From the NCBI RefSeq assembly GCF_000385135.1, contig NZ_ARQM01000010.1, positions 1,178,001-1,242,000 of the forward strand: a DNA stretch of 64,000 nt, read 5' to 3'. Source of the DNA: Promicromonospora sukumoe 327MFSha3.1 (GTDB lineage: Bacteria; Actinomycetota; Actinomycetes; Actinomycetales; Cellulomonadaceae). The position numbers and the translations under genes are program-made. Each line of letters starts with the position of its first letter. Position 1 is the first letter of the stretch. This document shows positions 32,792 to 44,793 of this stretch, in pieces. The notes under the pieces were generated by a model. The model was not told the DNA's origin. It saw only the letters and a program-made list of their open reading frames with translations, and searched no databases.

Positions 32792-34006
32792 TCAGGCCCG
32801 GACCTCCTCCAGGTACTCCGCGATGCGGCCGATCGCCTCGGTGAGCACCTCGACGTCGGGCAGCGTGACCAGGCGGAAGTGGTCCGGCTCGGGCCAGTTG
32901 AAGCCCGTCCCGTGCGTCACCAGGATCTTCTTGGCGCGCAGCAGGCCGATCACGAACGCCTCGTCGTCCTTGATCGGGTACATCTCGGGGTCGAGCCGCG
33001 GGAAGCAGTACAGGGCGCCGCGCGGCCGCACCGAGGTGACGCCCGGGATCTCGTTGAGCAGCTTGTCCGCCAGCATCGACTGCTCGTAGAACCGGCCGCC
33101 GGGCTGGACCAGGTGGTCGATCGACTGGTAGCCGCCGAGTGCCGTCTGGATGGCGTGCTGCGCCGGCACGTTGGCGCACATGCGCATGTTGGAGACGAGG
33201 GTCAGGCCCTCGATGAAGTCGGTCGCGCGGTGCTTGGGGCCGGAGATCATGGCCCAGCCCGACCGGTACCCGCAGATCCGGTACGCCTTGGACAGGCCGC
33301 TGAACGTGATGCACAGGACGTCGTCGGCGGCGAACGTGGCGGTGTGGTGGTGCGTGGCGCCGTCGAACAGGATCTTCTCGTAGATCTCGTCGCTCAGGAG
33401 CACCAGGTCGTGCCTGCGCGCCAGCTCCGCCAGGCCCTTGACCGTCGACTCGCTGTACACCGCTCCGGTCGGGTTGTTCGGGTTGATGATCACGAGCGCC
33501 TTCGTGGCGGGCGTGATGCGCGACTCGATGTCCTCCAGGTCCGGGTTCCACCCGTTGGACTCGTCGCACCGGTAGTGCACCGGCGTGCCGCCCTGCAGGC
33601 TCACGGCCCCGGTCCACAGCGGGTAGTCCGGCGCGGGCACCAGCACCTCGTCGCCGTCGTCGACCAGCGCCTGCAGCACCATGCTGATCATCTCGGAGAC
33701 GCCGTTGCCGATGAAGACGTCGTCCACGTGCGTGTCGATGCCGTGCGACTGGTAGTACTGCGCCACCGCGGTGCGCGCCGAGTAGATGCCCCGGCTGTCG
33801 CTGTAGCCCTGGGCCTCGGGCAGGTGGTGGATCATGTCCGCGAGGATCGCGTCCGGCGCCTCGAACCCGAACGGCGCCGGGTTGCCGATGTTCAGCTTGA
33901 GGATCTGGTGACCCTCCGCCTCCAGCCGGTACGCCTCCTCCAGGATCGGCCCACGGACGTCGTACCGGACGGACTTCAGCTTGCGGCTCTGCCTGATCTC
34001 TCGCAC
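32792..34006 (-). CDS. pyridoxal phosphate-dependent aminotransferase (alanine/aspartate type)
   Basis: 404 residues from GTG 34006. Class I aminotransferase: NIGNPAPFGFEAPDAI, EGYSDS-like AQGYSDSRGIYSARTAVAQY, IINPNNPTGAVYS, LSDEIYEKILFDGATHH and the PLP-lysine region TFSGLSKAYRICGYRSGW. This matches the actinobacterial alanine aminotransferase group (AlaA-like) rather than a biosynthetic specialist, though exact specificity needs assay. An in-frame ATG is not available nearby; GTG is the best start. Confidence 0.92.
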   Translation of the reverse strand: MREIRQSRKLKSVRYDVRGPILEEAYRLEAEGHQILKLNIGNPAPFGFEAPDAILADMIHHLPEAQGYSDSRGIYSARTAVAQYYQSHGIDTHVDDVFIGNGVSEMISMVLQALVDDGDEVLVPAPDYPLWTGAVSLQGGTPVHYRCDESNGWNPDLEDIESRITPATKALVIINPNNPTGAVYSESTVKGLAELARRHDLVLLSDEIYEKILFDGATHHHTATFAADDVLCITFSGLSKAYRICGYRSGWAMISGPKHRATDFIEGLTLVSNMRMCANVPAQHAIQTALGGYQSIDHLVQPGGRFYEQSMLADKLLNEIPGVTSVRPRGALYCFPRLDPEMYPIKDDEAFVIGLLRAKKILVTHGTGFNWPEPDHFRLVTLPDVEVLTEAIGRIAEYLEEVRA

Positions 34007-34195
34007 CCGCTCATGGTCGCAGGTCCGGTGGTGTGCCCGTGCACTTCCGCACCGGGTGAGATGACCGTTCCGACCGCTTTCGGGAAGTTCACCCGGGCCG
34101 TCGCGCAGTTTCGCCCGGGAGGCCCGCGCGGCGCCAGTAATCTCCGGTCGGGCAGCGACGCCCCCAAGGATCTCGACCCCCCGGACAGGTAACTG

Positions 34196-35182
34196 ATGGC
34201 CACCACACGTGACGCGGCGCCGACCGCGAACTTCTTCGACCCGCTGGCACACGTGCCCGACGGCGCCGCCCTGCGGGCGGCCCGTGACGCGGGTGACCCG
34301 ACGGCTGCGCTCGCGGTGATCCGCGGCATGATTGTGCCCGACGACATCGCGGCCGCGTTGTGGGCGCTCGCGGACACCTCGGCGGGGGTCACGGACGAGG
34401 CGCAGCAGCTCACGGCGGCGATCGAGGCGGCAGACGACGGCACGCCGCTCGCGCGTACCCTGCGGGCGATCCGCTATGTGACGGTGGGCTGGGCGATCCG
34501 GTCGCACGCCCGGGCGGAGCACGTGTCGGCGGGCCAGTTCGAGCAGTTCCACGACTGGCTCCGGCGGGCCGAGCGCGTCCTCTTCGACGTCTGCTCCGAG
34601 CATCCTGACTACGTGCCGGCCTGGGAGCCGCGGATCACGACGGCTCGCGGCCTGCAGCTCGGGCACGGCGAGGCGCGACGTCGGTACGACCGGCTCGCGG
34701 CCCTCGACCCGCAGGTGTTCGCCGCGCAGCAGGTGTACCACCAGCAGATCCTGCCCAAGTGGAGCGGCTCGTGGGAGGAGGCTTCCCGGTTCGTCGAGGA
34801 GTGCGCTGCCGCGGCCGCACCAGGTTCGCTCGGGTCGGCGCTCGTGGCCGACCACGCGATCGAACGGTGGCTCGACGGCGAGAAGAAGGTCCCGTCCGCG
34901 ATGGTGGACCGGGTCCGCGAGGCAGCCGCCGCCACGGTGCTGCATCCCGACCACGTCCGCACCGCGGCGACGGCGACGGCGCACACGAACTTCGCGTTGT
35001 TCTTCACGATCGCCAAGGCGCCCGTCGACGCCTGGCCGCATTTCGAGGCCCTCGGGAGCTCGCCCGTCGAGGGCATGTGGAGCTACTACGACCTGCGCGC
35101 CGAGGTGCCTTACCAGGTGCAGCGGGACCTTGCCGCCAAGGCCGCGGCGAAGGCCTCCGCCCGTCCGGGCGTGCCGGCATGA
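34196..35182 (+). CDS. hypothetical helical protein, first gene of the M16 operon (DUF4034-like features)
   Basis: 328 residues. No membrane segment or signal peptide. The middle part (EHPDYVPAWEPRITTARGLQ; RYDRLAALDPQVFAAQQVYH; QQILPKWSGSWEEASRFVEE) has the TPR-like look and KWxGSWEE motif seen in DUF4034-type proteins. The function of that group is unknown. Its stop overlaps the next start (ATGA), tying it to the two M16 proteins; it could be a scaffold or adaptor. The 189-bp upstream gap is shared with the divergent aminotransferase gene. Confidence 0.7.
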   Translation: MATTRDAAPTANFFDPLAHVPDGAALRAARDAGDPTAALAVIRGMIVPDDIAAALWALADTSAGVTDEAQQLTAAIEAADDGTPLARTLRAIRYVTVGWAIRSHARAEHVSAGQFEQFHDWLRRAERVLFDVCSEHPDYVPAWEPRITTARGLQLGHGEARRRYDRLAALDPQVFAAQQVYHQQILPKWSGSWEEASRFVEECAAAAAPGSLGSALVADHAIERWLDGEKKVPSAMVDRVREAAAATVLHPDHVRTAATATAHTNFALFFTIAKAPVDAWPHFEALGSSPVEGMWSYYDLRAEVPYQVQRDLAAKAAAKASARPGVPA

Positions 35183-36888
35183 GCATCGCAGCGCTCCCCG
35201 ACCTGGCGGACTTCCCGGGTGTCGCGCTCGCCGAGTCCGGCGGGGTACCCGTGCTTCTCGCTCCGCGGGAGGGGAACCTGGGCGCCGGAATCGCCTTCCG
35301 GGTCGGCACCGCGCACGAGACCCTCGCGACGTCCGGCATCACGCACCTGGTCGAGCACCTCGCCCTGCGTGGCCAGGTGCTCAGTGAGGCGCACCTGAAC
35401 GGGCACACCCACACGGACGTCACCGTGTTCCACGTGGCGGGATCTGCCGCCGATGTCGTGTCCTACCTGAACGATGTGTGCGCGTCGCTCCAGGATCTGC
35501 CGCTCGACCAGTTCGAGACCGAGAAGGACATCCTGCGGTCCGAGGCGGAGGGCAGGAAGCCGGGCTTCGTCGGCGCACTGCGGGTCAACCGACACGGCGC
35601 GCGCGGCTACGGGCTGGCGGGGTACGGAGAGCGGGGCCTCGACCGGATCACGCCGGGCGAGGTGCGGCAGTGGGCGGCACGGATGTTCACGCGGGAGAAC
35701 GCGGTCGCCTGGGTCACGACGGACGCGCTTCCTGCGGGCCTGGACCTGAGCCTGCCGTCGGGTGAGCGGATGGGTCCGCCCGCCCGGACCGACGTGCTCC
35801 AGGGCACTCCCGCCTACCTGTGCGGGCTGGGGGACGGTGTGGCCCTCGACGCGATGGTGCCGCGAGGGTATCCGGCGCTCCTGGCGACCGGGGTGATCCG
35901 GGAGGTGCTGCACCGCGACCTGCGCCGTGACGCCGACGTCGCACAGTCCTTGAGCGTGTCCTACGAGCACCTGGACGACGAGCTCGCGCGGGTCGGCATC
36001 GTCGTGCAGGCGGGCGAAGGGCGCCAGGACGCGGCGGCCGGTGGCCTGGCCGACGCGCTGGGCGGCCTCCGGTTCCACGTCACCGAGGACGACCTGGCCG
36101 CCGCCCGCGAGGCGCTGCTCGAGGAGACGACGGAGGCTGCCGCGGCGCCTGCCGCCGATCTAATGCCGTCGCTCGCCTACCGCATGGTGACCGGCCGGGA
36201 CCTCGACGGGGTGGCCCGTGCGCGTGCCGCCGTGGAGGAGGTGTCGGCGGACGACGTCCTCGGGATGATGCGTGAGATCTGGGCGAGCGCGCTCTGGTAC
36301 GGACCCGCACCCCTGGACTGGGCGGGTATGACGCCCGCACCGGAGCGGTCGCCCGCGCTCGCGAAGGGGCGGTCGTACCAGCGCATCGACGCCCCGGACC
36401 TGTCGCTGGTGATCGGTTCCGAGGGCGTCGGGAACGTGTCGCGCGACGGCGTAGTCACGGTCCTCTTCGCCGACTGCGTGCTGATGGAGGCGGTGCCCGA
36501 CGGTGCGCGGGTGCTCACCGGTGGCGACGGGTTCCGGGTCGTGATCGAGCCGACCCTCTACCGCTCCCTCTCGGTGGCTGACGTCGTCGCGTCCGTGGAC
36601 CGGTACGTGCCCGAGGACGTCGTGGTGCACCATCCCGCACGGGACCCGCAGGACATCCCGGTCGCCGTGCCGCCGAAGAAGGCGGGCAAGGTCGCGCGTT
36701 CGGTGTGGGGGACCGTCGAGCGCCTGATCGCGCTCTGGTTCGGCGTGATCGTCCTGTTCGCCGGGGCGGAGGCCGTCGCGCGCGAGTTCTTCGGAACCGA
36801 GCTGCGCCTCGGCTTCCTTCCGCTGCTCGCCCTGGTGGCAGCCACGGTCCAGGTCTTGCGCAAGCGGCACGGGAAGGGGGACCGATGA
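35179..36888 (+). CDS. M16-family (insulinase-like) metallopeptidase with C-terminal membrane anchor, active-site intact
   Basis: 569 residues. The inverted zinc motif HXXEH is present as HLVEH at 56-60 within ETLATSGITHLVEHLALRG; Glu122 in KDILRSEAEGRK is a plausible third ligand. A second M16-like domain follows (RGYPALLATGVIREVLHRDL). After residue 500 come two membrane helices (LIALWFGVIVLFAGAEAVA; FLPLLALVAATVQVL). There is no signal peptide, so the peptidase is expected to face the cytoplasm, tethered to the membrane. It is translationally coupled on both sides (ATGA overlaps). Substrate unknown. Confidence 0.85.
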   Translation: MSIAALPDLADFPGVALAESGGVPVLLAPREGNLGAGIAFRVGTAHETLATSGITHLVEHLALRGQVLSEAHLNGHTHTDVTVFHVAGSAADVVSYLNDVCASLQDLPLDQFETEKDILRSEAEGRKPGFVGALRVNRHGARGYGLAGYGERGLDRITPGEVRQWAARMFTRENAVAWVTTDALPAGLDLSLPSGERMGPPARTDVLQGTPAYLCGLGDGVALDAMVPRGYPALLATGVIREVLHRDLRRDADVAQSLSVSYEHLDDELARVGIVVQAGEGRQDAAAGGLADALGGLRFHVTEDDLAAAREALLEETTEAAAAPAADLMPSLAYRMVTGRDLDGVARARAAVEEVSADDVLGMMREIWASALWYGPAPLDWAGMTPAPERSPALAKGRSYQRIDAPDLSLVIGSEGVGNVSRDGVVTVLFADCVLMEAVPDGARVLTGGDGFRVVIEPTLYRSLSVADVVASVDRYVPEDVVVHHPARDPQDIPVAVPPKKAGKVARSVWGTVERLIALWFGVIVLFAGAEAVAREFFGTELRLGFLPLLALVAATVQVLRKRHGKGDR

Positions 36889-38672
36889 CCGGCGACACCC
36901 TTGAGCTTCCCCGGATCCTCTTCGCGCGGCGTCCCGGCCGCGTCGCCGGAGGTCTCGTGTTCCGCGTGGGCCTTGCCGACGAGACGCTCGCCACCAGCGG
37001 CATCACTGCTCTGGTGGTGGCTCTCGCCCTGCGCGCGGTGGAGCGACCGGGTCTGGACATCAGTGCCTCGGTCGGCCCCGTCGTGACCCACGTCCGGGTG
37101 AACGGCTCCGCCGAGCGCGTGCGCACCACGCTCCGGGACCTGACGCGTGCCCTGGCGAGCCTGCCGGTGCAGCACCGCGAGACCGAGACGCGTGCGCTCG
37201 ACGAGCGGCAGACGGATGCCCTCGGGGTCCTGGCCTGGCGGTACGGGTTCCAGTCGTACGGCCTGGGCCCTGGGCAGCACGTGGGGCTCCACGGTGCGAC
37301 CGACGCCGATCTCCGGTCGTGGTCCGCCGAGCGGTTCGCGAGCTCCAACGCGGTCGCCTGGTACGCGGGTGACGAGGAGCCGGACCTCGACCTCGCGTTG
37401 CCGGCCGGAGCGCTCGGCGCCGCACCGCACCCGCTGCCGGCAGTCCCGGAGCCGGTGCGTCCGCTCCCCGCCGAGGCTCCGGTCGGCGGCCCGAACGTGG
37501 TGTGGGAGGTCGTGGCTCCCGACGTGCCGACCCTCCAGGTGCTCGCCGAGGTCGCCCGCCGGGCGCTGTTCCAGCGCATGCGCCAGGACCAGGGCTGGAC
37601 CTACGACGTCTCTGCCACGATCGGGGTGCTCGACGGGCGGCAGGCCACGCTGCGGGTCGCGGCAGGACTGCGACCGGAGACGGCCGCCGAGGCCACCGGC
37701 GAGTTCCTCGACACCCTGGGTCGGCTGCGGTACGCCGTCGCCGAGGACGACGTCGCAGCGGCGCGCGCCCATCTGCTGCTGGCGTTCGACGAGCCGCACC
37801 AGGAAGCGATGTGGCTGCCCGACGAGGCCGCGCTGGTGCTGCTGGGGCAGCCCGTACCGTCGCCGACCGAGCGGAGAGCGGCGATCGCCGACGTCACTGC
37901 CGCAGACGTCGTCTCCCTGGCGGGTGCTTCCTGGGAGACCGGGCTGCTGGTCGCGCCGGTCGGGTCCGGCTGGGCCGGGACCGACGTCGCGCGGCGGGGC
38001 ACGGGCGAGGTAGTCACCGGCCGTGCCTTCGAGCGCATCGACGTGGACGCGACGATCGTCGTCGGGGACCAGGGCGCCACGCTCCGGGACGGGCGGACCC
38101 GGACGACCGTCCGGTTCGCCGAGACGGCCGCGCTGCTGGCCCACCCCGACGGCGGACGCCTCCTGGTCGGGCTCGACGGGGCGCGGATCCCCTTCGAGCC
38201 CACTCAGCACGACGACCTGGACGCGCCGACCGTCGCCGAACTCGTGGACCGGCACGTGCCCGAGGAACTGGTCGTGCCCGTTCCCCGCGCGACGCCACCG
38301 CAGCGCCCCGACAAGGAGCGGATCAAGCAGGCGGGCCGGGCCCGCGCCGACCGCGAGGTCGAGGAGGACGGGATCCTGCGTACCGCCGGGGCTGCGGTGG
38401 TCGGCACCGGCAAGGCCGCGCTCGAGCTGGGCAAGCTGATCGGCGTCCTCGCCCTGGCCCTCGTGCTGCTCGCCGCCGTCGGTGGCACGCTCTTCTCCGG
38501 CGTGCTGCTCATGGTCTGGATCGGCAGCCTGCTGGACGGCGAGCGCGACTGGCTGACGCTCGCCGTCATCGTGCCCGCCGGCCTGGCCTGCGCCGGCATC
38601 ACCCGGCTCACCTACAAGGCCGTCATCAAGATGGGCGGCGAGGACAAGGGCAAGGCCGAGGACGCCGGCTGA
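36885..38672 (+). CDS. M16-like paralogue lacking the zinc motif, membrane-anchored
   Basis: 595 residues. It aligns with its upstream neighbour (ETLATSGITALVVALALRA against ETLATSGITHLVEHLALRG), but both zinc histidines and the catalytic glutamate are replaced (ALVVA at the HLVEH position). The second domain keeps an M16-like substrate-binding sequence (RRALFQRMRQDQGWTYDVSA). The C-terminus has two or three membrane helices (LALALVLLAAVGGTLFSGVL; WLTLAVIVPAGLACAGITRL). As in mitochondrial processing peptidase or paired bacterial M16B proteins, it is probably the non-catalytic partner of the active subunit. Confidence 0.83.
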   Translation: MTGDTLELPRILFARRPGRVAGGLVFRVGLADETLATSGITALVVALALRAVERPGLDISASVGPVVTHVRVNGSAERVRTTLRDLTRALASLPVQHRETETRALDERQTDALGVLAWRYGFQSYGLGPGQHVGLHGATDADLRSWSAERFASSNAVAWYAGDEEPDLDLALPAGALGAAPHPLPAVPEPVRPLPAEAPVGGPNVVWEVVAPDVPTLQVLAEVARRALFQRMRQDQGWTYDVSATIGVLDGRQATLRVAAGLRPETAAEATGEFLDTLGRLRYAVAEDDVAAARAHLLLAFDEPHQEAMWLPDEAALVLLGQPVPSPTERRAAIADVTAADVVSLAGASWETGLLVAPVGSGWAGTDVARRGTGEVVTGRAFERIDVDATIVVGDQGATLRDGRTRTTVRFAETAALLAHPDGGRLLVGLDGARIPFEPTQHDDLDAPTVAELVDRHVPEELVVPVPRATPPQRPDKERIKQAGRARADREVEEDGILRTAGAAVVGTGKAALELGKLIGVLALALVLLAAVGGTLFSGVLLMVWIGSLLDGERDWLTLAVIVPAGLACAGITRLTYKAVIKMGGEDKGKAEDAG

Positions 38673-38675
38673 CGA

Positions 38676-38738
38676 CCGGTGGCGACGGGCAGGTCACCCC
38701 TCGGCGAGACGCGCCGGGAACCCGCCCGTCGCCACCGG
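38676..38738. terminator. hairpin between the M16 operon and the PPOX gene
   Basis: CCGGTGGCGACGGGC (38676-38690) is exactly complementary to GCCCGTCGCCACCGG (38724-38738), with a 33-bp loop. The right arm lies in the 3' end of the convergent PPOX gene. It could end transcription from either side; the large loop makes it weaker than the other hairpins here. Confidence 0.45.
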
Positions 38739-39164
38739 GCCCCAGCGCTCGATCGTGATCCGCACCAGCGACTTTCCCTGCTGGACCATCGCCGCGCGGT
38801 ACTCGTCCCAGTCGGGGTGCTCCTTGCCCGCGGCCGCCCGGAAGTAGTCGACCAGCGGCTCCACCGACTCGGGGACGTCCAGCACCTCGGCCGTGCCGTC
38901 GACCTGCACCCACGCGCCGCCGAAGTCATCGCCGAGCGCCATGAACGACGCCGCCGGCCGCTTCTTCAGGTTCCGCACCTTGGCTCGCTCGGGGTACGTC
39001 GAGACGACGACGCGTCCCTCCTGGTCCACCCCGTACGTCACCGGGCTCAGCTGCGGGGCGCCGTCGGCCCTGCTGGTCACGAGGATCCCGTTGCGGCGCG
39101 AGCGCAGGAACTCCAGCAGCTCGTCCCGGGACACGGTCGTGTTGGTCGCGATAGTCCTGGCCAT
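38694..39164 (-). CDS. PPOX-class (pyridoxamine oxidase-like) flavin/F420-dependent oxidoreductase
   Basis: 156 residues from ATG 39164 (MARTIATNTTVSRDELLEFL). Split-barrel flavin-binding fold: RRNGILVTSRADGAPQLSPV, GRVVVSTYPERAKVRNLKKR, and VQVDGTAEVLDVPESVEPLV. This is the TIGR03618-like group, often using F420 or FMN in actinobacteria. Substrate unknown. Divergent from aspS. Confidence 0.88.
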   Translation of the reverse strand: MARTIATNTTVSRDELLEFLRSRRNGILVTSRADGAPQLSPVTYGVDQEGRVVVSTYPERAKVRNLKKRPAASFMALGDDFGGAWVQVDGTAEVLDVPESVEPLVDYFRAAAGKEHPDWDEYRAAMVQQGKSLVRITIERWGPVATGGFPARLAEG

Positions 39165-39273
39165 GGGCGTCAGGCTACGCGCAGCGGAGCCCGCCACGGC
39201 CGGCGACGCCAAGGTGGCCCGGCGGTGACTAGAATTCTCGGCGACCCTCACCTCACCCTGGAAGGACTTCTTC

Positions 39274-41061
39274 GTGCTCCGCACCCACACGGCCGGCTCA
39301 CTGCGGGCCGAGCACATCGGCCAGACCGTCACCCTCACGGGCTGGGTCGACCGCCGCCGTGATCACGGAGGAGTGGCGTTCATCGACCTGCGCGACGCGT
39401 CCGGCATCGCCCAGGTCGTCATCCGCGACGAGGAGATCGCCCACCCGCTGCGCGCCGAGTTCGTGCTGCAGGTCACCGGCGAGGTCGGCCGCCGCCCCGA
39501 GGGCAACGCCAACCCCAACCTCGCCACCGGCGAGATCGAGGTCGTCGCCACCGAGGTCGTCACCCTGAACGAGTCGGCCCCGCTGCCGTTCCAGGTCTCG
39601 ACGGCGCTCGCGGACACCGAGGTCATCGGCGAGGAGGCGCGCCTCAAGCACCGCTACCTCGACCTGCGCCGTCCGGCTCCCGCCCACGCGCTGCGCCTGC
39701 GCGCCAAGGCCAACCAGGCCGCGCGCCGCGTGCTGGACGAGCAGGACTTCGTCGAGATCGAGACGCCGACCCTGACCCGGTCCACGCCCGAGGGCGCCCG
39801 CGACTTCCTGGTCCCGGCCCGCCTGGCACCCGGCTCCTGGTACGCCCTGCCGCAGTCGCCGCAGCTGTTCAAGCAGCTCCTCATGGTCGGCGGCATGGAG
39901 CGCTACTACCAGATCGCCCGCTGCTACCGCGACGAGGACTTCCGCGCGGACCGCCAGCCGGAGTTCACGCAGCTCGACGTCGAGATGAGCTTCGTGGACC
40001 AGGAGGACGTGATCGCCCTCGGCGAGCAGATCCTCCAGGCCCTGTGGGCGCTGGTCGACGTCGAGATCCCGACGCCCATCCAGCGCATCACGTTCCACGA
40101 GGCCATGCGCCTGTACGGCACGGACAAGCCGGACCTGCGCTTCGAGAACCCGATCGTCGAGCTCACCTCGTACTTCGCGGACACGCCGTTCCGGGTGTTC
40201 CAGGCCGAGTACGTGGGCGCCGTCGTCATGGCCGGCGGGGCGGCCCAGCCGCGCCGCCAGTTCGACGCCTGGCAGGAGTGGGCCAAGCAGCGCGGCGCCC
40301 GCGGCCTCGCGTACGTCACCTTCTCGGAGGACGGCGAGCTCGGCGGCCCCGTCGCCAAGAACCTGTCCGACGGCGAGCGCGAGCACCTGGCGAAGGCGAC
40401 CGGCGCGCAGCCGGGCGACGCCGTGTTCTTCGCCGCGGGCAAGACGTCGGAGGCGCGCGCGCTGCTCGGCGCGGCTCGCCTGGAGATCGCACACAAGACG
40501 GGCGCGATCGACGAGGACGCCTGGTCCTTCGTGTGGGTCGTGGACGCGCCCCTGTTCAAGCCGGCCGGCGAGGACGACGACGTCGACCTCGGCTCGTCCG
40601 CCTGGACCGCCGTGCACCACGCGTTCACGTCGCCCACCCCCGAGTGGATCGACACGTTCGAGAAGGAGCCGGGCGAGGCTCTGGCCTACGCCTACGACAT
40701 CGTCTGCAACGGCAACGAGATCGGCGGCGGCTCGATCCGTATCCACCGCCGTGACGTGCAGGAGCGCGTCTTCGACGTGATGGGCATCGGGCAGGAGGAG
40801 GCGCAGGAGAAGTTCGGCTTCCTGCTCGACGCCTTCGCGTTCGGCGCCCCGCCGCACGGCGGCATCGCGTTCGGCTGGGACCGCATCGTGTCGCTGCTGA
40901 CGAAGTCGGCCTCGATCCGCGACGTCATCGCGTTCCCGAAGTCGGGCGGCGGGTTCGACCCGCTGACGGCGGCGCCGGCGCCGATCACGCCGGAGCAGCG
41001 CAAGGAGGCCGGCGTGGACTTCACGCCCGAGGCCGCGCCCGTGGCGGCCCCCACCGCGTGA
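39274..41061 (+). CDS. aspS: aspartyl-tRNA synthetase
   Basis: 595 residues from GTG 39274, preceded by GGAAGGAC. Class II synthetase of the bacterial type with an N-terminal anticodon OB-fold ([20 protein letters not shown]), motif 2 [20 protein letters not shown], the bacterial GAD insertion ([20 protein letters not shown]) and motif 3 [14 protein letters not shown]. Whether it also charges tRNA-Asn depends on gatCAB, not visible here. The stop overlaps the next gene by 4 bp. Confidence 0.97.
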
Positions 41062-41942: not shown

Positions 41943-42563
41943 ATGACCGAGAACGAGGGCGGTACGCCGCGCGATCCCCAGCCGGAGACGCCGCCTACGC
42001 AGCCGTTGCCCGGGTCGACCTCGCCGCAGGTCCCCGAGGGCTCACCCACCCAGCCGCTCCCGGACCAGCCGTACGGCTCGGAGCAGCCGCCCGCGCCGCA
42101 GCAGCCGGGCCCGCACCAGCCCGGACAGGACCCGGGCTCCCCGCGGCACCCCGGCCCCGACCCGAACGCGCCGTATGTCCAGCACGGGCAGCACAGCGCC
42201 CCGACGCCGTACGGCCAGCCCGGCGGCCCGACCACCACACCGCCCCAGTACGGGTACTCCCAGACGCCGCCCAAGAACGACCTCGGCGTGTGGGCGCTGG
42301 TCACGGGCATCCTCAGCTATGTGTTCTGCCCGCTGCTGCTCGGGATCGCGGCGATCATCACGGGCACCATGAGCCGCCGGGCCGCCGACGAGGGCCTAGC
42401 GAACAACCGCGGGATGGGTACCGCGGGCCTGATCCTGGGCTGGATCAACGTCGCGCTGGTGGTGGCCGCGATCATCTTCTTCGTCATCGCGCTGGCGGTC
42501 GGCCTGTTCGCCGGCGGCATCAACTGGGACCAGATGCGCGACCCCAACGACTGGAACTACTGA
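41943..42563 (+). CDS. DUF4190 membrane protein, copy 1 of 4
   Basis: 206 residues from ATG 41943 (GAAGGGAAGG upstream). The N-terminal 110 residues are Pro/Gln/Gly-rich and disordered. Then come NDLGVWALVTGILSYVFCPL, a GTMSRRAADEGLANNRGMGT loop and LILGWINVALVVAAIIFFVI, i.e. the DUF4190 double helix, with a short exposed tail. The family is uncharacterised; similar proteins with long Pro/Gln tails are common in actinobacteria. This copy lacks the MTQPD start of the next three. Confidence 0.87.
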   Translation: MTENEGGTPRDPQPETPPTQPLPGSTSPQVPEGSPTQPLPDQPYGSEQPPAPQQPGPHQPGQDPGSPRHPGPDPNAPYVQHGQHSAPTPYGQPGGPTTTPPQYGYSQTPPKNDLGVWALVTGILSYVFCPLLLGIAAIITGTMSRRAADEGLANNRGMGTAGLILGWINVALVVAAIIFFVIALAVGLFAGGINWDQMRDPNDWNY

Positions 42564-42585
42564 CCAGGAACTAGTTCGGACCGGG

Positions 42586-42629
42586 GTAGGGCTCCCCGTG
42601 CGGTTTTCCTGCCGCGCGGGGGGTCCTAC
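42586..42629 (+). terminator. imperfect hairpin after DUF4190 copy 1
   Basis: GTAGG...CCCCG..GCGG (42586-42603) pairs with CCGC.CGGGG...CCTAC (42612-42629) around a TTTTCCTG loop, with internal mismatches. It starts 23 bp after the stop codon and separates copy 1 from copy 2. Confidence 0.6.
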
Positions 42630-42692
42630 CTGTAGGTTTGGCACCTCCGGGCCGGATCGGCCCCGGTACCGAGCAACCAGAGAGGCAGCACG

Positions 42693-43277
42693 ATGACCCA
42701 GCCTGACGGCGGCCAGTCTCCTTACGACCCGCCGCAGCAGCCGCAGCAGCCCGAGCAGAGCCAGCCGGGCGCGGTTGCGGGCCAGCCTGCCCCGTACCAG
42801 CAGCAGCCGTACCAGCAGCAGCCGTACCAGCAGTCGCCGTACCCGCAGCAGGGCGACGCGCAGGCGCCCGTCTACGCGCAGGGCGGCCAGCCCGGCTACG
42901 GCGCCCCGCTGCCGAAGAACAGCCTCGGCGTCTGGTCGCTGGTGCTGGGCATCCTCTCGGTGCTGGGCTGCGGCCTGCTCACCGGTATCGCTGCCATCAT
43001 CACGGGTGTCAAGAGCCGCCAGGCGCAGCGTGAGGGCCTCGCCAACAACGGCGGCATGGGCCTCGCGGGCCTCATCCTCGGCTGGATCGGCACCGTGCTG
43101 GTGACCCTCGGCATCATCGCGTACATCGTGTTCTTCGCCTTCGTGGTCACCTCGCCGGAGTTCCAGGACGGCATCGAGCAGGAGCTGCAGAACAGCTACG
43201 AGCAGGAGCTCGGCGACAGCGGCGCGACCATGGACCCGGAGCTCCAGGAGCTCATGGACGAGCTCGAGAACAGCTGA
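42693..43277 (+). CDS. DUF4190 membrane protein, copy 2 of 4
   Basis: 194 residues starting MTQPDGGQSPYDPPQQPQQP. A Gln/Pro/Tyr-rich N-terminus is partly encoded by a 15-bp tandem repeat (QQQPY units at 42798-42827). Then NSLGVWSLVLGILSVLGCGL, TGVKSRQAQREGLANNGGMG and LILGWIGTVLVTLGIIAYIV. The C-terminal tail is acidic (DPELQELMDELENS) and longer than in copy 1. Followed by its own hairpin terminator. Confidence 0.88.
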   Translation: MTQPDGGQSPYDPPQQPQQPEQSQPGAVAGQPAPYQQQPYQQQPYQQSPYPQQGDAQAPVYAQGGQPGYGAPLPKNSLGVWSLVLGILSVLGCGLLTGIAAIITGVKSRQAQREGLANNGGMGLAGLILGWIGTVLVTLGIIAYIVFFAFVVTSPEFQDGIEQELQNSYEQELGDSGATMDPELQELMDELENS

Positions 43278-43298
43278 GCCCGCATCTCAGCAGCCGGC

Positions 43299-43347
43299 CA
43301 GCCCGCCGCGACCCGAGGTGAGATCTCCTTCGGGTCGCGGCGGGCTG
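43299..43347 (+). terminator. hairpin after DUF4190 copy 2
   Basis: A perfect 18-bp stem (43299-43316 with 43330-43347) with a 13-base loop containing AGATCTCC lies 21 bp after the stop, ahead of copy 3. Confidence 0.8.
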
Positions 43348-43403
43348 ACTCGTCCCCACCCCTCCGCGCCACCCGGCGCGGCTGAACCACGGAAGGCAGC
43401 ACG

Positions 43404-44192
43404 ATGACCCAGCCCGACGACGGGACCGCCGCGACCGGCCCACAGGACCAGCCGGCGCCCGACCAGCCGACGACGGAGCAGCCCGCTCCCTCCCAGCCGA
43501 CGGCGGAGCAGCCGGCGGCCGAGCAGCCGACGTCGCCCTACGGGCCCGCGTCCCCGACGCCGCCCGCCGGGCCGGTCTACGGCCACCCCGTGCAGCACCT
43601 GCCGGGTCCGCCGGTCCCGCCGGTCCAGGACGCCGCGGCCCACCCGGGGCAGCAGGCCTCGGGCCAGCCGGCCGAGTACCCGTCCGGCCAGTACGCCTCG
43701 GGCCAGCCGGCCGAGTACCCGTCCGGCCAGTACGCCTCGGGCCAGTTCGCCCCTGGCCAGCCGGCCCAGTACCAGTCGGGTCAGTACCCCACCGGGCAGT
43801 ACCCCACGGGCCAGTACCCCACGGGCCAGTACCCCACGGGCCAGTACACCTCCGGGCAGTACCCCTCCGGCCAGGTCCAGCCGTACCAGCCGCAGTACCA
43901 GTACGGCTACGCGCCCGCGCCGCCGAAGAACGACCTGGGCGTCTGGTCGCTGGTGACGGGCATCCTGAGCTGGATCATGTGCCCGCTCGTGCTGGGCATC
44001 GTCGCGATCTTCACCGGGAACGCGAGCCGCAAGGCGGTCCGCGAGGGACTGGCGAACAACCCCGGCTCGGCGACGGCGGGGCTGGTCCTCGGCTGGATCA
44101 ACGTGGGCCTCTTCGGCCTCGGGGTGGTCGTGTGGATCATCTTCGTGTTCTTCGGGCTGCTCGGCGCCGCGTTCTCCGTGTCCCAGTCGTGA
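43404..44192 (+). CDS. DUF4190 membrane protein, copy 3 of 4, with pentapeptide-repeat-like tail
   Basis: 262 residues, the longest copy, starting [14 protein letters not shown]. The cytoplasmic N-terminus of about 170 residues is low complexity, with [13 protein letters not shown] repeated twice and QYPTG-type units six times. The membrane part is [20 protein letters not shown], then [20 protein letters not shown] and [20 protein letters not shown]. The repeats are near-identical at the DNA level, so length variation between strains is likely. Confidence 0.88.
43656..43745 (+). repeat. 39-bp tandem repeat inside DUF4190 copy 3
   Basis: Two identical 39-bp units (43656-43694, 43695-43733) plus 12 bp of a third. 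Each encodes [13 protein letters not shown]. The perfect identity implies recent duplication. Confidence 0.9.
43782..43871 (+). repeat. 15-bp tandem repeat (six units) inside DUF4190 copy 3
   Basis: Six 15-bp units beginning CAGTAC, from 43782 to 43871; the units at 43797, 43812 and 43827 are identical. They encode [10 protein letters not shown] and QYPSG. Confidence 0.88.
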
Positions 44193-44271
44193 GCGGCGGC
44201 CCACGCACGCGCGCGGCCCGGCCGCGTGTTGCGGCACACAGCGTCCCGCGTACCCGGTGGAAGGTGGAAGC

Positions 44272-44793
44272 ATGACCCAGCCCGACGAGTGGAAGTCGCC
44301 CTACGACCCGCCCGCCCAGCCCGCCGACCGCGGCGCCCAGCCGGGGCCGGAGCAGCCGGCACCGCCCAGCCCCTACGGGCAGCCCGACCCGCAGGGGCAG
44401 CCGTACGGGGCCCAGCCCTATCCGGCGCAGCCGTACCCCGGCCAGCCCTACCAGTACGGTGCCCCCTACGGCTACGCCGCCCCGCCCGAGAAGAACGCCC
44501 TGGGTGTCTGGTCCCTCGTGCTCGGCATCCTGAGCGTCCTCATGCTGTTCAGCTGCGGGGTCGGGTTCCTCGCCGGCATCCCGGCGGTCATCACCGGGCA
44601 CCTGAGCCGCAAGGCGCAGAAGGAGGGCCTGGCGGACAACGGCGGCATGGGCCTGGCCGGGCTCATCACGGGCTGGGTCACGGTCGGCCTGACTCTCCTC
44701 GCGGTGGTCGGGCTCGTCATCCTGTTCAGCATCCCGGAGTTCCGGGAGGGCTTCTTCAGCGAGACGACCTCCAGCTACAGCTACGAGTACTGA
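44272..44793 (+). CDS. DUF4190 membrane protein, copy 4 of 4
   Basis: 173 residues, the shortest copy, from ATG 44272 (GGTGGAAGC upstream), starting MTQPDEWKSPYDPPAQPADR. The N-terminus is Pro/Gln/Tyr-rich. The membrane part is NALGVWSLVLGILSVLMLFS, then TGHLSRKAQKEGLADNGGMG and LAGLITGWVTVGLTLLAVVG. The tail ends SSYSYEY. The next gene is convergent with a 23-bp gap. Confidence 0.88.
   Translation: MTQPDEWKSPYDPPAQPADRGAQPGPEQPAPPSPYGQPDPQGQPYGAQPYPAQPYPGQPYQYGAPYGYAAPPEKNALGVWSLVLGILSVLMLFSCGVGFLAGIPAVITGHLSRKAQKEGLADNGGMGLAGLITGWVTVGLTLLAVVGLVILFSIPEFREGFFSETTSSYSYEY

Follow-up and report, generated by a model that had tools for sequence, protein, structure and literature searches.

The zinc site of M16 peptidases consists of an HxxEH motif plus a distal Glu, and an Arg/Tyr (R/Y) pair helps in substrate binding and transition-state stabilisation (PMC12731061). 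Bacillus halodurans BHP (3hdi) is a homodimer of identical M16B subunits (PMC12731061). In Bcn-gP1/Bcn-gP2 and PttP1/PttP2, HxxEH and R/Y are divided between the subunits, with subunit interaction shown for both pairs (PMC8960859), and mitochondrial processing peptidase (MPP) alpha/beta combines a catalytic and a non-catalytic M16B subunit (PMC11266112) and presents a glycine-rich loop instead of the R/Y pair (PMC12731061). Bacillus subtilis YmfF/YmfH have been reported to be membrane-associated in spores (PMC13393411). Here we describe an operon of three genes (A, B, and C) in Promicromonospora sukumoe 327MFSha3.1, which has a genome of 6.25 Mb; the window, to which coordinates refer unless another locus or contig is named, is a stretch of 64,000 nucleotides (NZ_ARQM01000010.1, positions 1,178,001 to 1,242,000, forward strand). 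B and C encode M16 paralogues that lack complementary parts of the active site, and A, B, and C likely represent a heterodimeric M16B peptidase that is tethered to the membrane on its cytoplasmic side and has a tetratricopeptide repeat (TPR)-like partner. The genes (protein lengths in amino acids, aa) and their active-site positions are:

34196–35182, plus strand: gene A, encoding a predicted all-helical TPR-like solenoid protein of 328 aa
35179–36888, plus strand: gene B, encoding a putative catalytic M16B-type subunit of 569 aa with a C-terminal membrane hairpin
36885–38672, plus strand: gene C, encoding a putative non-catalytic M16B-type subunit of 595 aa with the R/Y pair retained and C-terminal membrane helices
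35344–35358, plus strand: HLVEH zinc site of B (residues 56–60)
35542–35544, plus strand: Glu122 of B, by homology the distal zinc ligand; C has Arg here
35923–35946, plus strand: R249...Q256 of B, at the position of the R/Y pair, with the Tyr lost
37008–37022, plus strand: ALVVA of C (residues 42–46), at the HxxEH position
37581–37604, plus strand: RQDQGWTY of C, with the R/Y pair retained (R233, Y240)

B and C are paralogues that present 34% identity over 486–487 aa; together with the motifs, this confirms that adjacent paralogues carry HLVEH and ALVVA, respectively, at the zinc site, as stated in an earlier model-made reading of the letters of this stretch (hereafter the original prediction). 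That reading overlooked the reciprocal loss, which is the key feature of the pair. Six positions were read in a 92-row M16 alignment, namely the three HxxEH residues (H, E, and H), the distal Glu, and both members of the R/Y pair. The B rows, which exclude the frameshifted B of the congener G001 and include a B of P. citrea that is cut by a contig end after the positions read, presented H, E, H, E, and Arg in 8/8 cases and a replacement of Tyr by Q, S, G, or D in 8/8. All nine C rows kept the Arg and the Tyr, and all nine had lost the zinc and catalytic positions, which read A/S/G, V/L, A, and R/S. The window itself presents H56, E59, H60, and E122 in B and R233/Y240 in C. As read from this alignment, the loss is reciprocal, with the zinc site kept in B and the R/Y pair kept in C. 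The E115-x6-E122 spacing is the usual one, and the profile alignment to 4nnz fits this spacing. E122 lies 62 positions after H60 in B, as compared to 76 positions in BHP (HFLEH 46–50, E126; table in PMC12731061).

Constraint is reciprocal in step with the motifs, i.e., domain 1 is tighter in B and domain 2 is tighter in C. Using the same eight species for both proteins, domain limits read from the B model, and 300 column bootstrap resamples, mean identity in domain 1 was 0.735 for B versus 0.601 for C (difference +0.080 to +0.186), and mean identity in domain 2 was 0.565 for B versus 0.674 for C (difference −0.171 to −0.046); the third domain and the tail presented no difference in conservation between B and C. 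These data bear on a reading in which C is a pseudoenzyme with a regulatory or scaffolding role, B being active by itself or as a homodimer while C does no more than modulate B or hold it at the membrane. C is without any zinc ligand, pseudopeptidases with regulatory roles are known (PMC11266112), and the Tyr is missing from two single-form proteins (see below); however, C retains in 9/9 rows precisely the R/Y pair that B has lost, and domain 2 is the better conserved one in C as domain 1 is in B, and we consider a purely regulatory or scaffolding C improbable. That C is a decaying duplicate without function, as the disappearance of all its zinc and catalytic residues could suggest, is hardly credible. 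The ratio of nonsynonymous to synonymous substitution rates (dN/dS) against strain MEB111 was 0.19 for A, 0.24 for B, and 0.23 for C, with 0.28–0.42 in the other comparisons; for C, five comparisons gave 0.23–0.42, similar to A and B, and the reading frame of C is open in all nine genomes read. These low dN/dS values show that C is maintained under purifying selection.

The structure model of B (predicted local distance difference test, pLDDT, 93.6) has the M16 subunit fold, built from two homologous domains. Its best superposition was on 7v4y_A from the TTHA1264/TTHA1265 complex (Z 32.1, 356 residues aligned), and the 50 structural matches listed for B were all M16 proteins or bc1 core/MPP subunits (Z 29.0–32.1, 348–367 residues). 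In profile searches, C passes Pfam PF05193 (35 bits, cut-off 23), B stays just under the PF00675 cut-off, 57 aligned family members include 49 with PF05193 and 36 with PF00675 at E ≤ 0.01, and the family profile retrieves M16B structures, with 4nnz as the top match (E 5e-12). After the two M16 domains, the B model presents a third domain, located at:

36370–36603, plus strand: beta-rich domain of B (about residues 398–475)

The order of strands and helices in this domain is similar to that of PH domains, and a PH-like identity is conjectural: bPH_6 matched one of 57 relatives, and eight domain fragments gave no match to a PH family. Of 57 relatives, 10 matched the NCBIfam YfmF model, the best at E 2.8e-5, and a search of NCBIfam with the window proteins gave only two matches (E 0.16 and 0.083), both far below cut-offs. 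A defence system was considered as well; the sole PADLOC match at E ≤ 1 was ZorF3 for B (E 0.026), too weak to use.

Both M16 proteins end in membrane helices, as originally predicted and as confirmed by hydropathy:

36703–36867, plus strand: membrane hairpin of B (residues 509–563; helices 509–538 and 547–563)
38412–38609, plus strand: membrane helices of C (about residues 510–575)

Topology was assigned by a hydropathy calculation rather than by a trained predictor. C-terminal hydrophobic helices were found in 83 of 87 family proteins (two helices in 69, one in 11, and three in 3) and, counting the single-form M16 proteins, in 68/71; among the 72 family proteins with at least two such helices, 69 carry a net positive charge in the tail, and at least two Lys/Arg directly precede the first helix in 79 of 83. 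A hydrophobic stretch within the first 50 residues was present in only 4/83 anchored family proteins, all of them C proteins, including that of the window. In the latter, the stretch (residues 35–49, LATSGITALVVALAL) aligns with the HLVEH helix of B inside domain 1, and, as judged from this alignment, LATSGITALVVALAL is a degenerated zinc helix and no N-terminal signal; B presented no signal peptide in the hydropathy test, so that the claimed lack of signal peptides stands for both proteins. The positive tails, the Lys/Arg before the helix, and the lack of a true N-terminal signal suggest that the M16 part of the family most likely faces the cytoplasm. At the same site of the congener G004, which is without the trio of genes, a protein of 178 aa that contains two hydrophobic hairpins is encoded (L047, 8452–8988); it matches the tail of B (E 9.4e-4).

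The structure model of A is all helical, with 16 helices (pLDDT 94.3), and its structural matches are TPR solenoids. The best of them (APC/C TPR subunits, Z 13.7) is at a level that helical models can reach by chance, and the best Foldseek match (E 3.7e-3) is also within the chance range for helical repeats. TPR_14 and TPR_19 each presented weak matches to 6/52 relatives of A, and the best relative with a solved structure found by sequence reached only E 0.14. TPR-like solenoid is a fair description of the modelled A, and it fits better, though not decisively, than the DUF4034-like label of the original prediction, which has no Pfam support. DUF4034 (PF13226) was matched neither by A at E ≤ 1 nor by 52 relatives at E ≤ 0.01; the whole genome gave no match at E ≤ 10, with a control search positive in 2/14 genomes, and the label was rejected. 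The rest of that description (an active/inactive, probably cytoplasm-facing, anchored pair and a scaffold-like partner) finds support here, and the R/Y complementarity makes it stronger.

In the heterodimer that we favour, B would supply the zinc site (H56, E59, H60, and E122), and C would close the clamshell and supply R233/Y240 for substrate binding and transition-state stabilisation. A would probably bind and present the substrate, or dock the enzyme. Membrane tethering and the solenoid partner point to peptides at the inner membrane surface, and the substrate would most likely be a short, unfolded peptide at this surface; cutting of short unfolded peptides in a closed chamber would follow the analogy with M16 enzymes.

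A scan of genome contigs with A, from which the best 80 of 357 relative-encoding stretches (79 distinct loci) were taken, showed that the three-gene form, among the loci seen, is limited to Promicromonospora (five loci), Isoptericola halalbus, and Myceligenerans pegani (together L082–L088; the contig of L086 stops before C). The other 72 loci are of a single form, in which A is followed by one M16 gene, and belong to Streptomyces, Micromonosporaceae, and other hosts; the M16 gene was called in 71 of them (the gene of L113 was missed; L071 and L111 are one gene). Both sites (H, E, H, E, R, and Y) are held by 69/71 single M16 proteins, with L102 and L120 as the exceptions, and A is immediately 5′ of the M16 gene in 77 of 78 loci having a called A, L113 being the remaining one; no A was detectable by tblastn in L120. 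The picture of homologues that occur singly and with no conserved gene order, named at the outset as one that would speak against a pair, is thus mostly contradicted: single forms are common, yet nearly all hold both sites and stand behind A. Besides A and M16, the commonest neighbour cluster was present in only 29/79 loci, i.e., the A–M16 unit sits in differing gene neighbourhoods across taxa. Within the genus Promicromonospora, A was found in 7/13 genomes and C in the same seven. A search with C of 150 genomes of the family gave a match at E ≤ 1e-10 in 19, including nine with a C-like gene of at least 51% identity and ten with weaker matches only. At class level, an A-like match was present in 70/394 genomes; among 20 A-like loci examined (the strongest and some weaker ones), an M16 gene adjoins in the seven strongest besides the window.

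Several relatives depart from these arrangements. Two order-level relatives, L074 and L075, present A plus a single M16 protein with HxxEH reading HLVSH or HVVGH, apparently a pseudoenzyme unit. In Actinoplanes sp. DH11 (L148, 3498–4994), an additional unanchored M16 protein (HLIEH, no R/Y) is encoded just upstream of a complete A–M16 unit, an arrangement that may represent a different way to arrive at a pair. A tandem M16 pair by a sufS-like gene (L046, 7361–10521; by eye) presents HLVEH in both proteins and Phe at the Tyr position of one. In G014 (L043, 8012–8680), M16 remnants lie in separate open pieces, apparently a decayed unit. A-like paralogues in L169, L173, L174, and L176 adjoin, by eye, an open reading frame (ORF) that looks like the HSP90 family and a large ORF, with no M16 gene. 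Outside the window, the genome of P. sukumoe 327MFSha3.1 contains another Peptidase_M16_C match, which is the stronger one (contig C12, 282534–283085, E 1.2e-36).

In an M16 tree of 44 rows, from which the trait columns had been removed, the B proteins and the C proteins formed separate clades (100/100 each), and each clade placed Isoptericola and Myceligenerans together, beside Promicromonospora; a single clade of B plus C was not rejected (approximately unbiased test, p 0.325). In the A tree, the A proteins of the trio formed one clade (100/99) nested among single-form A proteins of Promicromonosporaceae (97/92 and 96/91), suggesting, as the simplest view, that the split form is derived from the single form. 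Isoptericola halalbus carries both forms on one contig (L084 and L095). Judging by these sequences, it appears that an enzyme of the homodimer type was converted into a heterodimer via duplication and complementary loss. In the ancestral form, which many actinobacteria would still carry, A would have been paired with a single M16 protein that held both sites and worked as a homodimer, its two active sites being equivalent as in BHP. In Promicromonosporaceae, a tandem duplication would then have given two M16 copies that shed complementary residues, so that each dimer would be left with a single active site. On balance, we lean towards a natural conversion of a homodimer to an obligate heterodimer, by tandem duplication, complementary loss, and relaxation of the disused domains, in an apparently undescribed unit of a TPR-like protein and a cytoplasm-facing, anchored M16 enzyme that would handle a membrane-linked peptide.

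A number of observations weigh against the heterodimer or against this history. B alone falls short of the Pfam PF00675 cut-off (20.1 versus 22.3 bits), and three of the 71 single forms (L149, L154, and L160) show no C-terminal helix. The single-form Streptomyces proteins L102 and L120 are also without the Tyr (S instead) with no C alongside, and the order-level relatives L074 (6347–7897) and L075 (6289–7803) have lost both the catalytic Glu and R/Y; since these losses occur without a pair, residue loss alone is no proof of a partner. The B of the congener G001 (L035, 7615–9344) is frameshifted just past the distal Glu, with A and C intact, which represents either a sequencing error or a recent loss. 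The free M16 tree leaves B and C in an open fork, not as sisters, and C is on a long branch (1.51). Finally, 13 of the 20 examined class-level loci, with weaker A-like genes, have no adjoining M16 gene; A thus has paralogues with other roles, and the A–M16 unit is patchy rather than universal.

The surroundings of the operon bear on a further explanation, namely that B and C serve specifically to mature a peptide natural product whose gene lies elsewhere, in the manner of PttP1/PttP2 or AlbF/AlbE. Known M16B pairs mature lanthipeptides and subtilosin, and some are encoded away from the biosynthetic cluster (PMC8960859, PMC12731061). However, a LanC-like (PF05147) match is missing in 5/7 trio-bearing Promicromonospora genomes, including that of the window (other peptide classes not searched); this makes lanthipeptide maturation unlikely here, and a lanthipeptide role is not general for the trio. 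The trio and a LanC-like match are both present in G001 and G002. There is also little room for a precursor gene, as 189 bases upstream and 21 bases downstream are free of called genes. Five ORFs of at least 20 codons touch the upstream gap, the small ones being a 27-codon plus-strand frame and a 53-codon minus-strand frame (34089–34250). In seven related loci, pieces of the latter were clear in four and weak in a fifth (L086), with the whole frame in none; the congeners that align here do not preserve it uninterrupted. The small-ORF check across related loci found no conserved small ORF beside the operon. As the A–M16 unit also sits among different genes in different taxa, we judge a dedicated maturation protease unlikely.

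The genes themselves overlap at two sites:

35179–35182, plus strand: ATGA overlap, A stop/B start
36885–36888, plus strand: ATGA overlap, B stop/C start

The original statement that all starts overlap stops thus applies to B and C; it fails for A, the start of which overlaps no stop of the called upstream neighbour. This neighbour (32792–34006) is a divergent aminotransferase-like gene, and C is followed by a convergent oxidase-like gene (38694–39338) and, beyond it, an aspS-like gene (39274–41061); all three were named by eye. Upstream of A (34000–34195), the blocks AAGNTCACCC, CCAGTA, and GTCGGGC are invariant across six aligned Promicromonospora sequences and may represent a promoter or operator. 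No sigma-70 promoter or terminator was found in 33900–38800 (0.1 and 0.5 expected, respectively), a result of little weight in an actinobacterium; the window gave no Rfam match at gathering scores, and a plasmid collection searched with B (A and C not searched) gave no match. Downstream of the aspS-like gene (41943–44793), four consecutive Pro/Gln-rich proteins are encoded, apparently tandem paralogues (by eye).

Among the titles and abstract beginnings listed, our literature search found no report of a membrane-anchored M16 protein with a TPR partner or of a Promicromonospora M16 operon, with subscription papers mostly outside the search; "transmembrane" and "TPR" are absent from the main text of the M16 review PMC12731061, and "membrane" is absent from the main text of PMC8960859. 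M16B pairs are already known, and it is the anchored A–M16 unit and this split that are apparently undescribed; the present data also point to the A–M16 unit in Streptomyces, Micromonosporaceae, and other hosts.

Compared with the known systems, B and C resemble Sph2681/Sph2682 (3amj) and TTHA1264/TTHA1265 (7v4y), which are two-domain M16 subunits with HxxEH in one of the two; superposition of B gave Z 32.1 with 7v4y_A and Z 30.4 with 3amj_B, and the R/Y pair found in the non-catalytic partner of M16B heterodimers of the Sph2681/Sph2682 type is present in C as R233/Y240. Unlike these two systems, the present pair has a membrane hairpin and is accompanied by the gene of a TPR-like partner, and it arose separately, within one actinobacterial family. 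Bcn-gP1/Bcn-gP2 and PttP1/PttP2 share with B and C the same split of HxxEH and R/Y, but their substrates are lanthipeptides, and the genome of the window is without a LanC-like match. The single-form relatives may be understood after the example of BHP, the structure of which (3hdi_A) matches B at Z 31.4; unlike BHP, B and C are each without one of the two sites. MPP has the pairing of a catalytic and a non-catalytic subunit in common with B and C, whereas C, unlike MPP, retains the R/Y pair. MPP-like M16 pairs are classic catalytic/non-catalytic heterodimers whose homodimeric forerunner is seldom available; here, both presumed states appear in one bacterial family and even in one genome (Isoptericola halalbus), each beside the same kind of partner gene, and because they coexist, the step from homodimer to heterodimer can be tested by ordinary enzymology.

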